DNA from: Streptomyces europaeiscabiei
Lineage (GTDB): Bacteria > Actinomycetota > Actinomycetes > Streptomycetales > Streptomycetaceae
Direction: 5' to 3'
NCBI RefSeq assembly: GCF_036346855.1
Contig: NZ_CP107841.1
Coordinates: forward strand, 9,862,001 to 9,926,000
Length of the DNA: 64,000 bases
The stretch's first letter is position 1. Each line of letters begins with the position of its first letter. This document shows, one piece after another, positions 6,211 through 46,383 of this stretch. The notes beneath the pieces are model-generated. The model was not told the DNA's origin. It ran no database searches and saw only the letters and a list, made by a program, of their open reading frames with translations. Made by a program: the position numbers and the translations under genes.

Positions 6211-7372
6211 GGTCTTTCCTTGCCCGAGGGTGGTGCGAGGGGGCGGGGGACAGTGCGTCGCGCACCGCCGCGAGCTGTGCCGCGTAGGTGTCCAGGCCCT
6301 CCGCCGGGCCGCCCGGCAGGCCGGTCAGCCGGGGCAGCAGATCGCCGAAGGCGTTGACCTCGCCCACGGCGAACCGCCGCCAGCCGATCGCCGGCAACAG
6401 GTCCACGCCGACGCACAGCGTGCCCGGGAAGCAGGCGGCGGCCCGTTCACAGATGTCGAGCGCCTGCCTCCAGCGGTCGCCCGCCGCGTCCACGACCGAC
6501 GTCAGATCGCCCCGGGCCCCGCCGAGATGGAGATTGGTCATCGGGAAACGGCTGGTGCGGACGACCGCGTGCGTGGCCCGGCCCGCCACGACCAGGACCC
6601 GCAGATCGGCGGACCTGCCCTGCGCGGACGCCTTCGGCAGCCAGCGCTCGACGTGCAGCCCGTCGGCCGCGAGGACGTCGACGATGCCGGCGATCTCCCG
6701 CTCGTCCGAGTAGCGCCGCACCCGCAGCGAGTTGTGCAGCCGAAGCGGGGCGTGCAGCCGGCCGTCGGCGGTCACCTCCACCGAGGTGGTGGCCCTGATC
6801 CGTCCGCTCGCCGTCGACTCGACGGCCAGCACACCGGACGCGGAGGACCCGTGGGCCGGTTTCACGAACACACGCGGCATGCCGTGCTCCCGCATCGCCG
6901 CCCGCACGTCGTCCCAGCCGCGTACCGGCCGCGCGTCGCCCGAGGTGGGCGACGGGGGCACCGGGACCCCGGCCGCGTCGAGCCGGGCGTGGCACAGCCG
7001 CTTGTCGAACAGCACCGGCAGATCCGCCGGATCGTCCAGCCGCAGCCCGCCCCGCAACGACCCCACCGCCGCCAGGAAACGGGTGTACCAGGTGGCCGAG
7101 CCCTCCACCCGGGTCGGATCGTCGACGCCCCGCAGCAGCCGGTCCACCTCGGCGTTCTCTCCCGGCGAGTCCAGCCGTACGATCTCGTCGTCGGCGAACA
7201 TGTGCCCGCCGTCGCGCAGCACGTCCCGCCACTCGACCACACGCGGCGTGCCGACACCGGCGGCCTCCGCCGCCGCGACGAACAGCCCGACCCGCCGGTT
7301 CTCCCCGTTACCGACGACCACCCACCTGTACGGGCCGGGCCCCGCCCCCGCCGCACCGCTCCAACCGGACAC
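6197..7372 (-). CDS. ATP-grasp-like protein, STM4014 family
   Basis: 391 residues with a GTG start at 7372 behind an AAAGGGGGAT ribosome site. The central motif VFVKPAHGSSASGVLAVES looks like the ATP-binding Lys loop of ATP-grasp ligases. The acidic motif VGEVNAFGDLLPRL near the C-terminus fits the metal-ligand segment of the same fold. ATP-grasp enzymes join a carboxylate to an amine or thiol, so this member may make an amide or peptide bond on the cassette product (family knowledge plus inference). It overlaps the STM4013 gene and follows the STM4015 gene by 36 bases. Confidence 0.8.
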   Translation of the reverse strand: MSGWSGAAGAGPGPYRWVVVGNGENRRVGLFVAAAEAAGVGTPRVVEWRDVLRDGGHMFADDEIVRLDSPGENAEVDRLLRGVDDPTRVEGSATWYTRFLAAVGSLRGGLRLDDPADLPVLFDKRLCHARLDAAGVPVPPSPTSGDARPVRGWDDVRAAMREHGMPRVFVKPAHGSSASGVLAVESTASGRIRATTSVEVTADGRLHAPLRLHNSLRVRRYSDEREIAGIVDVLAADGLHVERWLPKASAQGRSADLRVLVVAGRATHAVVRTSRFPMTNLHLGGARGDLTSVVDAAGDRWRQALDICERAAACFPGTLCVGVDLLPAIGWRRFAVGEVNAFGDLLPRLTGLPGGPAEGLDTYAAQLAAVRDALSPAPSHHPRARKDHAPF

Positions 7373-38454: not shown

Positions 38455-39135
38455 TCACGGCTTGACGTAGACATCGTTGATCTGGCCGACGTTGTGCGAC
38501 CCGAGATTCGTCCAGGAAATCAACTGCTCAGCGGAGCCACCCGTGCGCATGCAGCCCAGGTCGCTGTCCGCATAACTTTGCGCGGGTGAGGCCTCGCCCC
38601 CGTGGGTGAGGCCGACGGCATGCCCGGTTTCGTGGCAGACAACGGCCTTCCAGGGGTTCGCCGACCCGCCACCCATGTTGTCGAAGCTGATGTGGTGCTG
38701 GTCGCACTCGTACTCGCTCGCGGCGTCATTGCACCAGGTCACGCCATTGACACCGGCGGCAAGACTCGGGTCGTTCCAGTCGAAGATGATGTCCGTCTCG
38801 GACGAGCCGTCGTACTGCATTTCACTGCCCGTGTGCTCGTGCCGTTCGAGATCGGTGGGCCCGTACTCATCCCCAAGCACTTCGCGCACATCGTTGTCGT
38901 CGGCGGTGGTCATGCCCGCCTCGATGCCGAAAGTCGGGTAGCCGTTGTCGGTCCGACAGCAATAGCCGTCGTCCTCACAGTCCCAGTACGTGTTGTCGGC
39001 CTTGTGCATGTTGTCGAAGCTCGCCGCCTGGGCGGTCAGCACAGCGCCGACAAACAGGGCGCCGGCCATGGCCATGACCGTGAAGATTTTTCTCGCGCTC
39101 CGCTGGAGGAGTACCTGCACGCGTTTGCCCCTCAT
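38455..39135 (-). CDS. Secreted metzincin-type zinc protease
   Basis: 226 residues from ATG 39135 (GGAAGTCG site). The signal peptide is FTVMAMAGALFVGAVLTAQA. The zinc-binding motif is HETGHAVGLTHG, an exact HExxHxxGxxH metzincin signature, followed by a CMRTG segment that may hold the Met-turn. Several cysteines (DCEDDGYCC, WCNDAASEYECD) suggest disulphides. It is small, like snapalysins and matrixin-like bacterial proteases, but is not obviously either. A lower-GC promoter region lies upstream (39136-39270). Confidence 0.8.
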   Translation of the reverse strand: MRGKRVQVLLQRSARKIFTVMAMAGALFVGAVLTAQAASFDNMHKADNTYWDCEDDGYCCRTDNGYPTFGIEAGMTTADDNDVREVLGDEYGPTDLERHEHTGSEMQYDGSSETDIIFDWNDPSLAAGVNGVTWCNDAASEYECDQHHISFDNMGGGSANPWKAVVCHETGHAVGLTHGGEASPAQSYADSDLGCMRTGGSAEQLISWTNLGSHNVGQINDVYVKP

Positions 39136-39593: not shown

Positions 39594-39719
39594 TCAGCGG
39601 ATGCGTGGCAGGGCCTTGTCCGGGTGCGCGGTCTGTACGTATTTCACCGCGACGCCGGGGTGAATGCCGAACAGCCGGACGAGGTGCACTGGGTCGGCGG
39701 TCTGCTGGGCCTCGTAGAG
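39594..39719 (-). pseudogene. C-terminal half of an integrase-like gene, split by insertion
   Basis: Minus-strand frame ending LYEAQQTADPVHLVRLFG, then VKYVQTAHPDKALPRIR and stop. The FGI-HPGVAVKYV pattern is the usual C-terminal end of a class of long actinobacterial integrase-like proteins. The frame continues seamlessly from the fragment at 45211-45430 if the Tn554-like element between them is removed (see findings). Both parts are relics. Confidence 0.7.
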
Positions 39720-39941
39720 TTTACCGACCGCGGGAGCTCGGATACCGGCTCTGAACTGCGACGATTCATAGACTACATGTCCGTGTCGGCGAGTTGGGAT
39801 CGTTGTTGTCGCTCGTTCGTGTGGTCGTCGTGCCGCGAGCGGGAGCACGGTGCGCGAGGCTCGCAGCGCCGGGGGTGCCTGGGCCCCCGTCCCGTTGCAA
39901 ACCAGTCGCCCAGGGGGCGTGGGGTCGGACACGATACGGCC

Positions 39942-40730
39942 ATGACTAGCAATCTCTTGCTTGGCCGGGCCCGGGAGCTATGGAGTGAGCTGGCGGTGAC
40001 GCCAGTGAAGTTCTCCTCCTCAGAGGGGGCGAACATTGTGGTCTCGCCTGCCTCGCAGTTGTGTCCGCCGTTGTGGACGGGGGTCGTGGTCCTCGGCGGC
40101 GCCAGCATCGTCACCGTGCCGAGCGTGCAGGTCGCCGAGCTGATGGCGGGCGCTTCAAGGAAGCTGTCCAATGAGGAGCTCGTCGACGAGGGTCGCTTGC
40201 GTGAAGTGTTGCCCGTCCTCGACGTACTTGGGCCCGCGTCCCTCCTCTATCTCGACCGCGCCGACTTCTTTCCTGTGCAAGGAGGCGCCGCTGTCGAGAA
40301 GGTGACGTGCGGCGACGATGAGCTGGCCGAGCTCCTGGCCCGCGCTGGTGAAGAGGACGCCGGCGAAAGCGGCTTGGAGGACATCACGTCTCCCGCATTC
40401 GTCCTCCGTGACGGTGACAAGGTGGTTGCCGCGGCCGGCTACCAAGCTTGGCCTCGGTCGGTGGCTCACCTCAGTGTGTTGGTTGAACCGGACCATCAAG
40501 GCCGGGGGCTGGCGCGGGTCGTGGCGTCTGCGGCGGTGGCCCATGCACTGGACGCCGGGCTGCTTCCGCAATGGAGAGCACGGCCGTATCCGTCAAGGCG
40601 TGTGGCGCTTGCGCTGGGCTTCCAGGAGCTGGGTTCCCAGCTCAGCATTCGCCTCGGCGACGGCGGCCCGCCAGCCTTGGCCGGTGAGCCGCCATCTGAA
40701 CTCGACCGAGCTGATTCAACGCACCGTTGA
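39942..40730 (+). CDS. GNAT-family acetyltransferase (transposon cargo)
   Basis: 262 residues from ATG 39942. The N-terminal half has no recognised fold. The GNAT domain occupies about residues 150-245: SPAFVLRDGDKVVAAAGYQ, then the acetyl-CoA loop VLVEPDHQGRGLARVVAS and LALGFQELGSQLSIRL. It is the only non-recombinase gene in the element, and its 3' end overlaps that of the DUF6262 gene by 15 bases (tail to tail). GNAT enzymes acetylate amines, including antibiotics, so a resistance role is possible but unproven. Confidence 0.8.
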   Translation: MTSNLLLGRARELWSELAVTPVKFSSSEGANIVVSPASQLCPPLWTGVVVLGGASIVTVPSVQVAELMAGASRKLSNEELVDEGRLREVLPVLDVLGPASLLYLDRADFFPVQGGAAVEKVTCGDDELAELLARAGEEDAGESGLEDITSPAFVLRDGDKVVAAAGYQAWPRSVAHLSVLVEPDHQGRGLARVVASAAVAHALDAGLLPQWRARPYPSRRVALALGFQELGSQLSIRLGDGGPPALAGEPPSELDRADSTHR

Positions 40731-41300
40731 GTCGGCGATCTGGGCTTCGAGGTCGGCGACGCGTCGGTCCTGGAAGCGGAGATTTGAGCGCGCGGCTTTG
40801 AGTCGTTCGTCGAGAGTGCGGTTGTCGGTGGTGAGCTGGCGGACCCGTTGCTTGAGTGTGGTGTTCTCGGTGGTGATCCGCTGGATCGCCTCCTCTGTCC
40901 ACTCGGCCTGCAAGTCGCGGATCTGGCCGAGGAGTTTGCCGATGTGGGTGCGCTGGGTGAGGATCTCAGCGTGGGCGGCGTTGAGGGCGTCCTCGGCGTT
41001 CAGCGCGCGTTGACGCCAGGTCGCCTCGTGCTCGTTGTCCTGGTCGGCGAGCATCTGGGACCGGCGTTCGCCGGTCTTGGCCATGGCGGTGGCGACCGCG
41101 GTCCTGGCCTCGGGATTGTCGTAGAGGAAGGTGCGCGAGACGTCCGCGCGGCGGGCGACGGCGGCGACGCTGACCTGGGCCTTCTCCCGCCGGATCCGAG
41201 CGATGGCCTCGTGAACCCGCTGGAGGGCGGCCTCTGCTCTGCGACGGCGGGCCGCCAGGGCGGCGGCTGTGCGAGGTTCCGGGACGGTGGCGGGGTTCAT
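40716..41300 (-). CDS. DUF6262 protein (TnpC-like)
   Basis: 194 residues from ATG 41300, overlapping the TnpB-like stop (ATGA). A helix-turn-helix-like N-terminal part (VSVAAVARRADVSRTFLYDNP) leads to a long coiled coil (AEDALNAAHAEILTQRTHI through LRFQDRRVADLEAQI). This is DUF6262, the companion of paired tyrosine recombinases in Tn554-like elements, where TnpC aids orientation and frequency of transposition. It is the last gene of the transposition operon. Confidence 0.88.
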   Translation of the reverse strand: MNPATVPEPRTAAALAARRRRAEAALQRVHEAIARIRREKAQVSVAAVARRADVSRTFLYDNPEARTAVATAMAKTGERRSQMLADQDNEHEATWRQRALNAEDALNAAHAEILTQRTHIGKLLGQIRDLQAEWTEEAIQRITTENTTLKQRVRQLTTDNRTLDERLKAARSNLRFQDRRVADLEAQIADSTVR

Positions 41301-43906
41301 CTGCGTGCTTCCTCGTCGTCGGCCGTTGTGTACTCGTCGCTGTACTCGCCCTCGTCGTGTCCAGCGGCGAGGTCGGTGGCGCGGAAGGCGGTGGACCACA
41401 CGCGGTGGAAGTAGTCCTGGGGTTTGCGCAGGTCTAGGGCGAGGGCGTCATCGAGAAGGCCGAGGCCGGACAGGGCCTTCTCCAGGCCGTCGATGGCGCG
41501 GGCGGTGGGCTCGAAGTACTGGTGGAGGTAGTCGGCGGTCGCGTCGTCCGGGGCACCTTCGGCCAGCAGCCGCCACTGCTCGCGTTTGCGGCGCCAGTAG
41601 AGAAGGTCGGCGCCGGACAGGACGAACTTGTCGCAGTTGTGGCAGTCCAGGTTCCACGGACAGGCACCGCCGTCGACGACGGGCTGGAAGGTGCAGAAGC
41701 CGCCCTCGGCCGGGGTACTGCGGCGGGACAGATCGATGGCCATGGCCTGGGCCTGTTCGCGGGTGAGCGGGGTGGCCTCCCCAGCGAGGAGTTCACCAGG
41801 TTGGGCGGTGCCCGGGCCGGCGACCCAGACGCGCTGCAGCACGTCCTCCAGATCAGAGCTGGTCAGGTGGACATAGTGCTCGGCCATGCGGTCGGAGACC
41901 TGACCGAGGTAGCGGCGGATGTGCGTCAAGGTGGCCCCGGCCCGCAGCAGGCTGGTGGCCAGAGTATGCCGGGCCTGGTGCGGAACGTACTGGCCGAGGT
42001 CAAGCTGTCCCAGCCAGCGGCGGAAGCCGCGGTGGAACCAGCTATAGGTGAGGGATTCCTCCCCACCGAGGTTGCGGACCCGGGTGGGGAAGAGAGCCAT
42101 ACGGGTCCGTTCCGACCGGGTGGGCTGGCGGCCGTGCCGGGCTGCGAACCGGGCCAGAGTCTTTCGCTGACGCTCGGCGAGCACCTTGTAGAGGTAGTCG
42201 GGGATGCGAATGGCGACGTCGTAGTTGCCGACCTTGGTCTGATCGTGCCAGAACATCGCCAGTCCGCCATACCTGCCGATGCAGTCCAGCGGCACCTTCA
42301 GGACCTCACCGCTGCGGCGGCCGGTGATGATGATCGTCTCCCAGATGTCCCTCATGCCCTGGTCCAGCGGGTCATAAGTCTCCGCGAGTTGAGCCAAGTT
42401 GCTCTCATCGGCAAGAGCACGTGCGACGTCGTCGGGGAACGGGCGGCGAGAGGGTCGCGGCGCTTCCCCACCGGCAGCCGGCATGGCGGCAACAAAAGCG
42501 TGGCCAAGCCCCAGATCGTGCACCTGTCCGGACTCCAGCGCCTCGCGCAGGAGCTTGCGGGTGTAGTTGAAGACGGGTCTGCGCGTGTTCGTGGTGACGA
42601 TCGACGGTGTTCCATCGGCGCGTTTCATCACCAAGGACGGCAGGCCGTTGCGTTCACGGTGCCGCTGGTCAGCAACGAACCGCGTCATGTGCTCTTCGCG
42701 CAGCAGGGAGGGATCATGGCCCCCGCCGGGTGCGTCGACCTCAAGAAATGCGCTCAGCTCGGTGATCGCCCGGCGGATCTGGTCGAACGGGCTCCTGCTG
42801 CGAGGGCACTGTGGGGAGCGCATCAGGGCAGCCAGGTAGTCCCACAAGAGATCACGCAGCCAGCGTTGAGACACCCCAGTCAGGTCGAAGTGGCCGCGCC
42901 GGTGCGGAATGCGAATCCCGAAGTGCTCGGTCTCGATGAACCCTGCTTCCCGGGTGTCAGCCGGAGCGAAGTAGACCAACCGGAGCGTGTTGGACATCTC
43001 GCGGGCCACCAGGCCCGTCGACCGGCGCTCTCCTCCGATGCTCAGGTCGGTGAGGGAGCTCAGTTCGTGGCCGCGGCATGAGTTGATCAGGTCCTGAACC
43101 CAGGGCAGTTCCCACTTGGCACGCTGTTGCTGGGCGTGAGCAAACAGGCTCCACTGGACCTCAGCCTTGGCCAGCGGCCTGAGCCCGAGCAGATTGATTT
43201 GTCCCGGGCGTGGCACCGGAGTAGCTGTCGCGCACCATCGCCGGAACTCCGCGAGGTCAACGTATGCGACGGGGACCGGCCGCCCATTCTGCTCGTAGCG
43301 TGACCACCACTGCTCCGGCAGCGATACTCCTCCGGGACTGCCGTGTGACCGGTAACGCTCCTCGTGCCACACGCATAGCCCCGTCGGCGCGTGCGCAAGA
43401 TCGCGGCAGACCACGACCTGACATCGCCCGTAACCCGTGAGGGGTTCCTGGTCGCCCAGCCACTGATCGAACCCAGTATCAACACCGTGGGCGGTCCTGT
43501 GAGCGTGCCAGCGCCGCTGATGGCGGTAGCAGAGATGAGTGCCGGCACTCTGAGCAGGCCGGACCAGACAGATCCGGCAGGTGATCTCGTGAGCTCTCTC
43601 GGCGAGAGCCAAGGGCCGGGCGGTGCGCAGGAACTCACCTTTCGTGCCACCGCGGGCGCGTTCAACGCGCCACTGCTCGTTGTGGACCGAGCAAAGATCC
43701 CTGGTGGACGTCCGCCACCGTTCGCATCCGTTTACCAGACACGCCCAGGAGTAGACCGGGTGCTCTGGCGGGATCTGAATGATGTCCGCCCGATACAGGG
43801 GGTCGAAGCTCGGCCCGTTGATCAGCGCGCTCAGAATCTCCAATCGGTCCCGGCCTTCGCGATCCGGACGGTCGGTGTGGAGCGGCAGCAGAGAGGTCGC
43901 GGTCAC
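41297..43906 (-). CDS. Tyrosine recombinase, TnpB-like
   Basis: 869 residues from GTG 43906, which overlaps the TnpA-like stop (GTGA) behind GGGAGAGGA. The N-terminal third has many CxxC/H pairs (ACLVNGCERW, LCSVH, ITCRICLV, LCYRHQRRWH), perhaps zinc-binding. The catalytic core shows the first Arg in ITGRRSGEVL, HQARHTLATSLL (His-x-x-Arg and the second His region) and the nucleophile Tyr in MAEHYVHLT. A further cysteine cluster follows (GACPWNLDCHNCDKF). It works with TnpA to move the element. Confidence 0.88.
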   Translation of the reverse strand: MTATSLLPLHTDRPDREGRDRLEILSALINGPSFDPLYRADIIQIPPEHPVYSWACLVNGCERWRTSTRDLCSVHNEQWRVERARGGTKGEFLRTARPLALAERAHEITCRICLVRPAQSAGTHLCYRHQRRWHAHRTAHGVDTGFDQWLGDQEPLTGYGRCQVVVCRDLAHAPTGLCVWHEERYRSHGSPGGVSLPEQWWSRYEQNGRPVPVAYVDLAEFRRWCATATPVPRPGQINLLGLRPLAKAEVQWSLFAHAQQQRAKWELPWVQDLINSCRGHELSSLTDLSIGGERRSTGLVAREMSNTLRLVYFAPADTREAGFIETEHFGIRIPHRRGHFDLTGVSQRWLRDLLWDYLAALMRSPQCPRSRSPFDQIRRAITELSAFLEVDAPGGGHDPSLLREEHMTRFVADQRHRERNGLPSLVMKRADGTPSIVTTNTRRPVFNYTRKLLREALESGQVHDLGLGHAFVAAMPAAGGEAPRPSRRPFPDDVARALADESNLAQLAETYDPLDQGMRDIWETIIITGRRSGEVLKVPLDCIGRYGGLAMFWHDQTKVGNYDVAIRIPDYLYKVLAERQRKTLARFAARHGRQPTRSERTRMALFPTRVRNLGGEESLTYSWFHRGFRRWLGQLDLGQYVPHQARHTLATSLLRAGATLTHIRRYLGQVSDRMAEHYVHLTSSDLEDVLQRVWVAGPGTAQPGELLAGEATPLTREQAQAMAIDLSRRSTPAEGGFCTFQPVVDGGACPWNLDCHNCDKFVLSGADLLYWRRKREQWRLLAEGAPDDATADYLHQYFEPTARAIDGLEKALSGLGLLDDALALDLRKPQDYFHRVWSTAFRATDLAAGHDEGEYSDEYTTADDEEARR

Positions 43907-45114
43907 TTCCTCTCCCCCCAGACCGTACGGAGCGCGGCGTCGAAGTCCGGGTCGTGGACGTCGACGTGCCCGTAGATCTCGTCGACCATCGTGGCCGAGG
44001 CCCAGCCGCCGGCGTCCCGGGCGATCAGCAGATTGCCGTGGGCGGCGTCGAGAACGGCCGAGGTAAAGGAATGCCGGAAGGCATGGGGCTTCACAAGTCC
44101 CAGACCGGCGCGTTTCCCAGCCCGGCCAAGCATCCGGCGGGCCGCGACCGGCGCCCACGGATGCCCGGTGTTCGCGCCGCGCAGCTGGACGAGGAGCATC
44201 CCGTGCCCGGCCTGCCCGCGCGGATACTCGCCGCCGGTGAGGTACTCGAAGTAGGTGTGCACCATCGCCGGGCTGACCCGCTTGATCAGCCCGCCGGTCA
44301 CCGTCCCGCCCTCGAGGCGCCACGGGTGCTTGGTCTTCGCCTCGGCCCGGTTCGGGTTGCCGGGCCGGTGGCAGATGTGGACGTGGGGGGTGCGGCATTC
44401 GCCGCAGGCCGCGTTCTCGCGCAGGTGCAGGTCGACCAGGTGGAGCCCGCAGAGCTCGCCGATCCTCAAGCCTCCGTCCGCGAGCCAGGTGACCACCAAT
44501 CGGTCCCGGGCCGAGTTCACCACCGTCAGGAGCCTCTCCCGGGCTCCCTCGGGGAGCATCTTTGGGTGCCGTCGGTGCGGGCCCTTCGGCGCGAGCGGGT
44601 TGGCGGGCAGCGCGGACTTCACGTGTCCGAGGAAGGAACGACGCCGGTCCACTCGCGACGGCAGCCGGGACGTGTCGAGCTTCTTGCCGAGTTCGCCGTT
44701 GACGCCGAGGGATGCCTGGTGCAGGTAGAAGCCCTTCAAGCAGGCCGCCGCGGTCGACAGAGCGGAGCGGCCGTAGGGGCGCTTGCCGACCCGCCACGGT
44801 TCTCCGAGCGGCATCCGGATCTCGGCGCCGACGACGCCCATGTATCGCTCAAGATCCCGCAGCACGACCTTGTCGAAGGCCAGGCACTCGCGCTCCAACC
44901 ACCGCAGGTGGTCCACCAGCAAGTACGCGTACGTCCTCTGCGTGCCCGAACCGTCATGGACACGCAGGAACCGGTCCGCCTCCTTGTGGACCGTGCCCTC
45001 GGGCCAGACGATCGTCCACGACCGCCGTCCATCCTTCCGCTCGATCGGCTGGACCCTCAAGTCCCCGACCACCACGTGCCGTACCACTCGTCCTCCGTAC
45101 CGACTCCGGAACAT
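43903..45114 (-). CDS. Tyrosine recombinase, TnpA-like
   Basis: About 403 residues from ATG 45114 (start uncertain; the frame is open to 45165, still inside the element). The N-terminal part is a SAM-like core-binding domain. The catalytic motifs are the first Arg in DGGLRIGELCGL, HAFRHSFTSAVL (His-x-x-Arg) and the nucleophile Tyr in MVDEIYGHVDVHD. First gene of the transposition operon; its upstream region holds an internal copy of the end repeat (45132-45142), where recombinase binding could also control transcription. Confidence 0.88.
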   Translation of the reverse strand: MFRSRYGGRVVRHVVVGDLRVQPIERKDGRRSWTIVWPEGTVHKEADRFLRVHDGSGTQRTYAYLLVDHLRWLERECLAFDKVVLRDLERYMGVVGAEIRMPLGEPWRVGKRPYGRSALSTAAACLKGFYLHQASLGVNGELGKKLDTSRLPSRVDRRRSFLGHVKSALPANPLAPKGPHRRHPKMLPEGARERLLTVVNSARDRLVVTWLADGGLRIGELCGLHLVDLHLRENAACGECRTPHVHICHRPGNPNRAEAKTKHPWRLEGGTVTGGLIKRVSPAMVHTYFEYLTGGEYPRGQAGHGMLLVQLRGANTGHPWAPVAARRMLGRAGKRAGLGLVKPHAFRHSFTSAVLDAAHGNLLIARDAGGWASATMVDEIYGHVDVHDPDFDAALRTVWGERK

Positions 45115-45131
45115 GACAGACGTCCCGGTCC

Positions 45132-45142
45132 CGGTCGGTAAA
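45132..45142. repeat. Internal copy of the element end repeat
   Basis: CGGTCGGTAAA, identical in sequence and orientation to the right-end repeat at 45200-45210 and 68 bases inside it. Likely an accessory recombinase site; it also lies just before the TnpA start. Confidence 0.7.
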
Positions 45143-45210
45143 CGAGCCCATGACGCCAACGTCACAGGTCCAGACGGACATCATGGGCGGCACTACCCAC
45201 GGTCGGTAAA

Positions 45211-45430
45211 GTAGAGGATGCGGTCGGCCCACACCTGGCGGGGCAGCAGTCCGATCTGGTCGAAGGTGGCCCTGCGCGCGCAGTAGCTGATCGGTGGGGA
45301 TGCCGGGTGCCGGTAGGTCCGGGAAGTGATCAGCAGATGCGGGTTGGTGGCCTCGGGCCAGCGCCGTCGGCGTTCGCGCAGCCAGTCGGCCACAAGGCCG
45401 GTGCTCAGCTCGTCGTGGTGGACGGTGTGG
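45211..45430 (-). pseudogene. Upstream half of the split integrase-like gene
   Basis: Minus-strand frame reading HTVHHDELSTGLVADWL, RRRRWPEATNPHLLITSRTY and LLPRQVWADRILY before it runs into the transposon end. It is the N-terminal continuation of the fragment at 39594-39719; together they give about 115 residues of an integrase-like C-terminus. The start of the gene is missing because of an older deletion joined directly to the HTH relic, so it was already broken before the transposon arrived. Confidence 0.7.
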
Positions 45431-45436
45431 ATGTGT

Positions 45437-45556
45437 TCACAAGGCGGCGACCTTGCTCAGCGACGGCGTGAACCCCGCCTTCGCGAGCGCCGCCTGCAGA
45501 TCGACCGGTCGTCAGATGTCGCGCTTGGCTGCCGCCCAGCGCAGATTCCACTTCAC
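45437..45556 (-). pseudogene. Relic of a small HTH regulator
   Basis: From GTG 45556 the frame reads VKWNLRWAAAKRDI, then TGA, then RPVDLQAALAKAGFTPSLSK and VAAL, then a second TGA. Intact members of this family, which sit between two integrase genes, have Trp at both stop positions (a KWNLR start and a helix-turn-helix core). The first stop is a nonsense change; the second is at the deletion junction. The start overlaps the upstream recombinase stop (GTGA). Confidence 0.65.
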
Positions 45557-45810
45557 CGCAAGCTCCCCCTGTCCGCGATCAGCCGCTGCCCGGCCCGCGT
45601 CGCCGACGACCTCCAGCGGTCCGCCTGCTCGGGATCAGCCTGGGCCGTCGCCAGGTAGTTGACCGTCGTAGTCGTCCAGACATGTCCGAGCATTCGTTGT
45701 ACCTCCCACAACGTCATCCCGCGCTCGTAGTTGTGGGTCGCGCACGCATGCCGCAGCAGATGCGGGAACAACCGCGGCACCGGCCCCGGCAGATACAGCC
45801 CGTGATGACC
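45553..45810 (-). pseudogene. C-terminal fragment of a tyrosine recombinase
   Basis: Minus-strand frame with LFPHLLRHACATHNYERGMT, WEVQRMLGHVWTTTTVNYLA and an ADRWR-rich tail. His-x-x-Arg, the second His (LGHVW) and the Tyr (NYL) of the recombinase active site are all kept, but the N-terminal domain and first Arg are absent. The fragment begins about where the divergent GNAT promoter starts. It is the first member of the decayed integrase/HTH/integrase set. Confidence 0.7.
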
Positions 45811-45852
45811 AGCCAGGAACCCGTGCGTACTCCAGTTCGGTAGGCTGCCGAC

Positions 45853-46383
45853 GTGACCGACACCCTCCACGGAATACGGATCAGAGCCGGCGCTCCGGCC
45901 GACGCTCCGGCCATCCTCGGCATGCTCGACGCGGCGGTGGCCTGGATGAACGAGCGCGGCAACACCGAGCAGTGGGGCACGATCCCGTACTCACGGCGGC
46001 CCGACGGGGTGGCACGGGTCGAGCGGTACACGACCGAGAACACCCCGTACATCGCGGAGCTGGACGGAACACCCGTCGGCGCCCTGGTGCTGGACTCCGG
46101 CCCCAGCCCCCAGATGCCGATCGCACCGGCCGGGGAACCCGAGAGGTACGTCCGGCTGCTGGTCTCCGACCGCCGCCACGCCGGTCGGGGCATCGGGGCG
46201 GCCCTGCTGGCCCACGCCGCCGAGGAGACCCGCCGGGCCGACGTACGGCTCCTGCGGGTCGACTGCTGGGCGGGCGGCGGCGGTGACCTCGTCGCGTTCT
46301 ACGAACGCAACGGCTTCATCCCCACCGACCGCTTCCTCTCCGGCACCTGGCCGGGCCAGGTACTGGCCAGGCGCGTCGACTGA
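45853..46383 (+). CDS. GNAT-family acetyltransferase
   Basis: 176 residues with a GTG start at 45853. The domain is complete: IRIRAGAPADAPAILGML at the start, YVRLLVSDRRHAGRGIGAAL as the acetyl-CoA loop, then LLRVDCWAGGGGDLVAFYERNGF. The cysteine in the DCW segment and the LVAFYERNGF end motif are typical for this subfamily. The substrate is not evident. It is chromosomal, divergent from the relic recombinase and not part of the transposon. Confidence 0.85.
   Translation: MTDTLHGIRIRAGAPADAPAILGMLDAAVAWMNERGNTEQWGTIPYSRRPDGVARVERYTTENTPYIAELDGTPVGALVLDSGPSPQMPIAPAGEPERYVRLLVSDRRHAGRGIGAALLAHAAEETRRADVRLLRVDCWAGGGGDLVAFYERNGFIPTDRFLSGTWPGQVLARRVD

Follow-up and report, generated by a model that had tools for sequence, protein, structure and literature searches.

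We analysed a stretch of 64,000 nucleotides from Streptomyces europaeiscabiei (contig NZ_CP107841.1, positions 9,862,001 to 9,926,000; "the window" below) and found in it an intact element of 5,491 bp, at positions 39720-45210. We are confident that it is a complete transposon and a member of the actinobacterial Tn554-related class, with a proposed scheme of movement in which the first 640 or so residues of its long recombinase, TnpB, would choose the target. Its ends can be placed to the base, it carries a tnpABC operon and a cargo gene, it sits in the DRIL-YEA codons of an integrase-like gene, and relatives with like ends are found at unrelated sites.

The ends of the element are made up as follows.

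39714..39719, no strand: left 6-bp core GTAGAG, on the tnpA-distal side
39720..39730, plus strand: left terminal inverted repeat TTTACCGACCG
39731..39790, plus strand: left-end DNA CTCTGAACTGCGACGATTCATAGACTACATG; of the 11 left ends compared (window included), 9 match it closely, and L109 and L112 diverge
45132..45142, plus strand: second, direct copy of CGGTCGGTAAA within the element, upstream of tnpA and 68 bp in from the right end
45200..45210, plus strand: right terminal inverted repeat CGGTCGGTAAA, a perfect 11-bp pair with the left repeat
45211..45216, no strand: right 6-bp core GTAGAG, on the tnpA-proximal side

The initial annotation had described a complete Tn554-like element with base-exact ends, perfect 11-bp terminal inverted repeats and flanking GTAGAG copies. 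The repeats and the cores are indeed present at these positions, and this part of the description is borne out by the homology of tnpABC and by the like ends of relatives. It had missed the internal copy of CGGTCGGTAAA and a GNAT cargo gene. The terminal pattern is not proof by itself. When we looked for 11-bp inverted repeats with identical 6-mers outside them, 1-12 kb apart, there were two instances in the window and 12 across 20 random Markov windows; because the same pattern arises in random sequence, we rejected it as self-sufficient proof. The second instance in the window (positions 6490 and 17972) agrees with the chance expectation. We accept the element as real because dozens of relatives at other sites have the same ends.

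These relatives came from searches with TnpA. Of the 392 genomes searched in the genus, 45 hold relatives, the element's own included (E up to 1e-60), and a collection of named genomes, mostly Streptomyces plus other actinobacteria, added 78 loci. Removal of duplicates took 128 loci to 102 distinct ones, window included. Right ends were called in 91 of these and both ends in 40. The calls are partly circular, as the motif was used to make them (right ends with no more than 3 mismatches to it, left ends by pairing); those on the left are less sure for L037, L082 and L101, and the left core of L050 was taken from an exact motif match. Evidence for the ends that is independent of motif calling comes from the DNA that separates tnpA from the right end, in which near relatives resemble one another (CGGTCGGTAAA, 57 bp, CGGTCGGTAAA) up to the terminal AAA, with different site DNA beyond it, and from host reading frames that run on across the element in many loci. 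Of the 54 elements with a TnpA identity of at least 75%, 39 have an exact internal copy of CGGTCGGTAAA at -68, and 45 have one with no more than one mismatch.

The element holds four genes, listed here with two parts of TnpB (aa, amino acids).

39942..40730, plus strand: cargo gene, GNAT acetyltransferase, 262 aa, with 84-85% identical copies in L035 and L047
40716..41300, minus strand: tnpC, DUF6262 (PF19776, 44 bits), 194 aa, ATGA overlap with tnpB
41297..43906, minus strand: tnpB, long tyrosine recombinase, 869 aa, GTGA overlap with tnpA
41990..43906, minus strand: TnpB residues 1 to about 640, the portion whose identity tracks the target
43364..43741, minus strand: three CCCH modules of TnpB, invariant
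43903..45114, minus strand: tnpA, tyrosine recombinase, 403 aa, Phage_integrase

The operon of two tyrosine recombinases and a DUF6262 gene had been claimed before, and its overlaps are real: GTGA at 43903-43906 is the stop of tnpA and the start of tnpB, and ATGA at 41297-41300 is the stop of tnpB and the start of tnpC. Both recombinases match Phage_integrase and run in the same direction. The CCCH residues are C57 C62 C73 H76, C111 C114 C127 H130 and C163 C168 C179 H182 (numbered as in alignment A1, one above the annotated start). The cargo gene and tnpC converge tail to tail. As the two NCBIfam matches of the cargo protein are far under their cutoffs (20.8 vs 420 bits and 14.9 vs 125 bits), we claim no function for it.

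The element belongs to a known actinobacterial Tn554-related class described in 2012 (PMC3414803). The sections of that paper available to us report the class in Streptomyces, Mycobacterium, Rhodococcus and others, with a pair of tyrosine recombinases, one of ordinary size (about 350 aa) and one that is abnormally long (611-828 aa), and a TnpC-like third gene that is present in most couples of two families and absent in others. They state that the long N-terminal extension matches no recognisable domain, and leave its role open; base-exact ends, cores and target genes are given here and not in those sections. In the window the long and the shorter recombinase have 869 and 403 aa, and the third gene is related to tnpC.

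When aligned with Tn554-family recombinases, as the initial annotation had suggested, TnpA and TnpB proved homologous to those of an element on plasmid pSN134 (L230) that we take to be of the Tn558 type. The two elements share the order tnpA-tnpB-tnpC, DUF6262 (the TnpC of that element matches the same family) and the C-terminal cysteine cluster of TnpB; they differ in that the TnpB of the Tn558-type element has 637 aa and lacks the three CCCH modules, and in that its TnpC has 121 aa against 194 here. Tn554 itself inserts in radC (att554), which is not a trait of the whole family; here the target is an integrase-like gene instead. Strand-biased circularizing integrative elements (SE), as described in the available part of PMC10214605, also have two tyrosine recombinases (one large), an auxiliary gene, a 6-bp core and target specificity, but SE (intA-tfp-intB-srap) encode Tfp between the recombinases, whereas here there are three genes and tnpA and tnpB overlap directly. 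Recombinase-in-trio (RIT) elements, in the partial description that we used, have overlapping recombinase genes and terminal inverted repeats as well; they encode three tyrosine recombinases, whereas the third gene here is DUF6262.

Two pieces of the host gene flank the element.

45217..45456, minus strand: host integrase-like fragment, N-terminal side of the junction, ending ...VWADRI, after which the core gives L-Y
39594..39713, minus strand: host gene fragment, C-terminal side (EAQQTADPVHLVRLFGIHPG...), in a frame joined across the core

Taking out the element and one core gives CGC-ATC-CTC-TAC-GAG in frame (R-I-L-Y-E), exactly as had been claimed, and the product reads ...VWADRI-LY-EAQQTADPVHLVRLFGIHPG.... 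We searched 150 related genomes for homologues of the target; 18 of them, counting the element's own, hold the sequence, and apart from the window locus it occurs uninterrupted at 21 places. Every one of these aligns unbroken at the core position, so the call of an integrase-type C-terminus as target holds. They read DRIL-[D/E/N]-EA or the variants DRIY-D, DRQL-E and DRIP-F; the nearest, L208 (79% identity), has CTGTAG against CTCTAC in the window, with a stop now at the same codon position. The C-terminal join stands, but the rebuilding of an intact gene does not: the gene is also broken upstream, its frame staying open for no more than 82 codons ahead of the junction. Open frames at the 21 homologous places span 541-921 codons in 8, which led us to reject the idea that excision restores an intact host gene, and 91-293 in 13, which indicates that short or decayed copies are common.

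Judged from their flanking DNA, the relatives insert at different sites, often in DNA that encodes conserved motifs. Comparison of the flanks sorted them into 11 groups with at least two members each and left 24 singletons, window included. Targets supported by Pfam are TniB-like/AAA_22, Mg-chelatase (ComM-like), another AAA_22 and creatininase. At the TniB-like, ComM-like and second AAA targets, the core encodes a residue pair ending in the aspartate of what we take to be the Walker B motif. Other targets carry names that we presumed from their motifs, NUC (VIVEYK), HAD (LFLDVDG), ATP-grasp (WWFLE) and TniA; a Pfam search of the pieces tried from these four gave no match. The largest group (L061, L063, L068, L070, L072, L076, L080, L081, L128, L139, L140, L145, L158 and L160; 14 loci) has one common right-flank site, GTCCGTCACCCTCACACGCC. 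Some of its elements lie near contig or chromosome ends, and L072 and its duplicate L073 lie at both ends of one chromosome.

From these comparisons we tentatively propose, as a reading that falls just short of an even chance, that the target is picked by a part of TnpB that can be exchanged, its N-terminal portion up to about residue 640, with the three CCCH modules. Swaps of this part would re-aim a common backbone (tnpA, tnpC, the TnpB C-terminus and the ends) independently of cargo, often onto DNA encoding conserved motifs of widespread genes. The module in the window would be one for the DRIL-YEA DNA of integrase-like genes, not met in the other elements compared. In the open-access literature, searched by titles and the beginnings of abstracts, we found no report of target modules or zinc modules for this class.

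Full-length TnpA and TnpB were present in 54 of the 102 loci, and 31 of these have a TnpA identity of at least 75% to the window. Nine of the 31 (window included) have no shared target label; from the 22 labelled elements we dropped L048 and L090 as near-identical, leaving 20 with 37 same-target and 153 different-target pairs. Mean identity for same-target and different-target pairs was 69.4 and 46.5% in TnpB 1-230, 76.8 and 51.2% in TnpB 230-470, and 82.4 and 59.8% in TnpB 470-640, against 89.0 and 85.0% in TnpB 640-870 and 87.1 and 83.8% in TnpA. All five differences were larger than each of 2,000 label shuffles, so it is the size of the difference and not its bare significance that sets TnpB 1-640 apart. 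Per-residue and tree counts were made with 19 labelled elements, the single creatininase element being left out. In the set of 20, the nearest neighbour had the same target in all 19 possible cases by each TnpB segment up to 640, in 16 by TnpB 640-870 and in 15 by TnpA. Quick trees needed at least 3 target changes for TnpB 1-640 (the minimum), 5 for TnpB 670-840 and 8 for TnpC. Cargo is independent of target: the GNAT gene occurs in the window, in L035 and in L047, at three different sites. The cargo proteins of L034 and L045 also resemble each other (nucleotidyltransferase family), as do those of L042 and L104 (APH family), one member per pair having been scanned.

In the scheme of movement that we propose, TnpA and TnpB would jointly exchange strands at the 6-bp core between the GGTAAA/TTTACC arms, assisted by TnpC, and the circular junction is predicted to be CGGTCGGTAAA-N6-TTTACCGACCG. 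TnpB residues 1 to about 640 would choose the target DNA. After insertion, the core of the target would lie on the tnpA side and the carried-in core on the opposite side, which is the arrangement given for Tn554 and SE in the available parts of PMC10214605 and PMC12486829.

The initial annotation had gone further and taken the junction as proof of insertion polarity; this was not borne out, because the identical cores of the window cannot reveal which copy is native. Among the 40 elements with both ends, the cores are identical in 21, differ by one base in 11 and differ by two to four in eight. We used the TniA-like site (249 genomes positive, 80 of them drawn on, 30 loci read), which reads DEW-V-NN-WQNR with core codons that are not fixed (Ala comes first in 25 of 30 intact homologues). 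Five loci with unequal cores could be scored there, L082 and L101 being left out because the sequence to the left of the element seems to belong to another gene. In three of the five the better fit is the tnpA-proximal core (clearly in L100, only slightly in L048, and in L050), which gives limited support to the native core adjoining tnpA.

A DDE transposon with terminal inverted repeats and a 6-bp target duplication would look alike in its repeats and identical flanks. We consider this highly improbable and rejected it: the Pfam matches of the four element proteins include no DDE family and do include two tyrosine recombinases, and target duplication does not yield the unequal cores of 19 of the 40 relatives. 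An ordinary integrative element that is cut out and pasted in, moving as a double-stranded circle that carries a short core, like Tn916 or the phage integrases, and with no copy-out route, is a better candidate, though still an unlikely one. The gene set, DUF6262 and the cysteine cluster match the Tn554 family instead, and a staphylococcal tnpABC element, Tn552-II, showed biased incorporation of the core into the circle in the portion of PMC12486829 available to us.

For the part of our proposal that concerns TnpB, the link with the target is correlational and rests on comparison of sequences. It is possible, though we lean away from it, that the link reflects shared descent only, with lineages that stayed in one target and a region that evolves fast for other reasons. 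TnpA follows the target too, weakly, and three elements depart from the rule, as shared descent would allow. TnpC, however, has no difference by target (0.78 same vs 0.775 different, 19 elements), and in TnpB the gap is below 0.1 past residue 660 and near zero past 720. Identity at fourfold-degenerate sites in different-target pairs (194 pairs, 22 elements) is 0.48 in TnpB 1-640 against 0.67 in TnpA, 0.69 in TnpB 670-830 and 0.65 in TnpC, so this region seems to have a different, older history; in same-target pairs (37) the values are 0.65, 0.71, 0.72 and 0.64. This contrast favours an exchange of older modules over faster protein change as the sole cause. Also at odds with shared descent is L037, which has a NUC-type module (93%) and sits in another gene with the same half-site, GA[AG]TTCAAG; this would fit a reading of DNA rather than a choice of gene.

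Several observations weigh against our proposals for movement and target choice. The window, with its two identical cores, is silent on polarity and on how cores move, and with one full copy in the whole genome (10.95 Mb) the activity of the element is unproven. At the TniA-like site the two cores fit equally well in L047, and in L113 the tnpA-proximal one is slightly the worse fit; the same-genome pairs L044/L048 and L089/L090 lack the core expected for direct copy-to-copy descent. TnpA tracks the target with 4 tree changes against the 3 of TnpB 1-640. Besides L037, the rule linking module and target is broken by L049 (whose module is 90% identical to that of L034, although the sites differ and show no clear likeness by eye) and L137 (module 80% to the ComM-type L075; a different gene, with no clear site likeness by eye).

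If the TnpB module does set the target, these elements would be a natural family of re-aimable tyrosine recombinases, which would bear on how new recombinase specificity evolves and might inform recombinase engineering. Now that its ends and cores are known exactly and its targets fall into at least six recurrent groups, the class becomes a testable system.

The TniA-like site hosts insertions in both orientations (groups 4 and 6). L044 and L048, which lie in one genome, do not differ in TnpA or TnpB; each has inserted in a TniA-like gene, and their orientations are opposite. The window's own genome has two TniA-like transposase genes (G000:C1:4830927-4831304 and 2810232-2810606), which are possible targets for relatives of the element. 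In the same genome a 39-bp segment (L002 1501-1539; G000:C1:3283501-3283539) matches the conserved left end at 92%, with no further similarity to the element at that place; it is likely a relic of a related element.

Beside the host fragment, at 45553-45870 on the minus strand, the window holds a decayed C-terminal remnant of a second tyrosine recombinase. At 38455-39135, also on the minus strand and next to the host fragment, is a gene for a secreted-looking protein with HETGHAVGLTH, which we take to be a metalloprotease-like signature.
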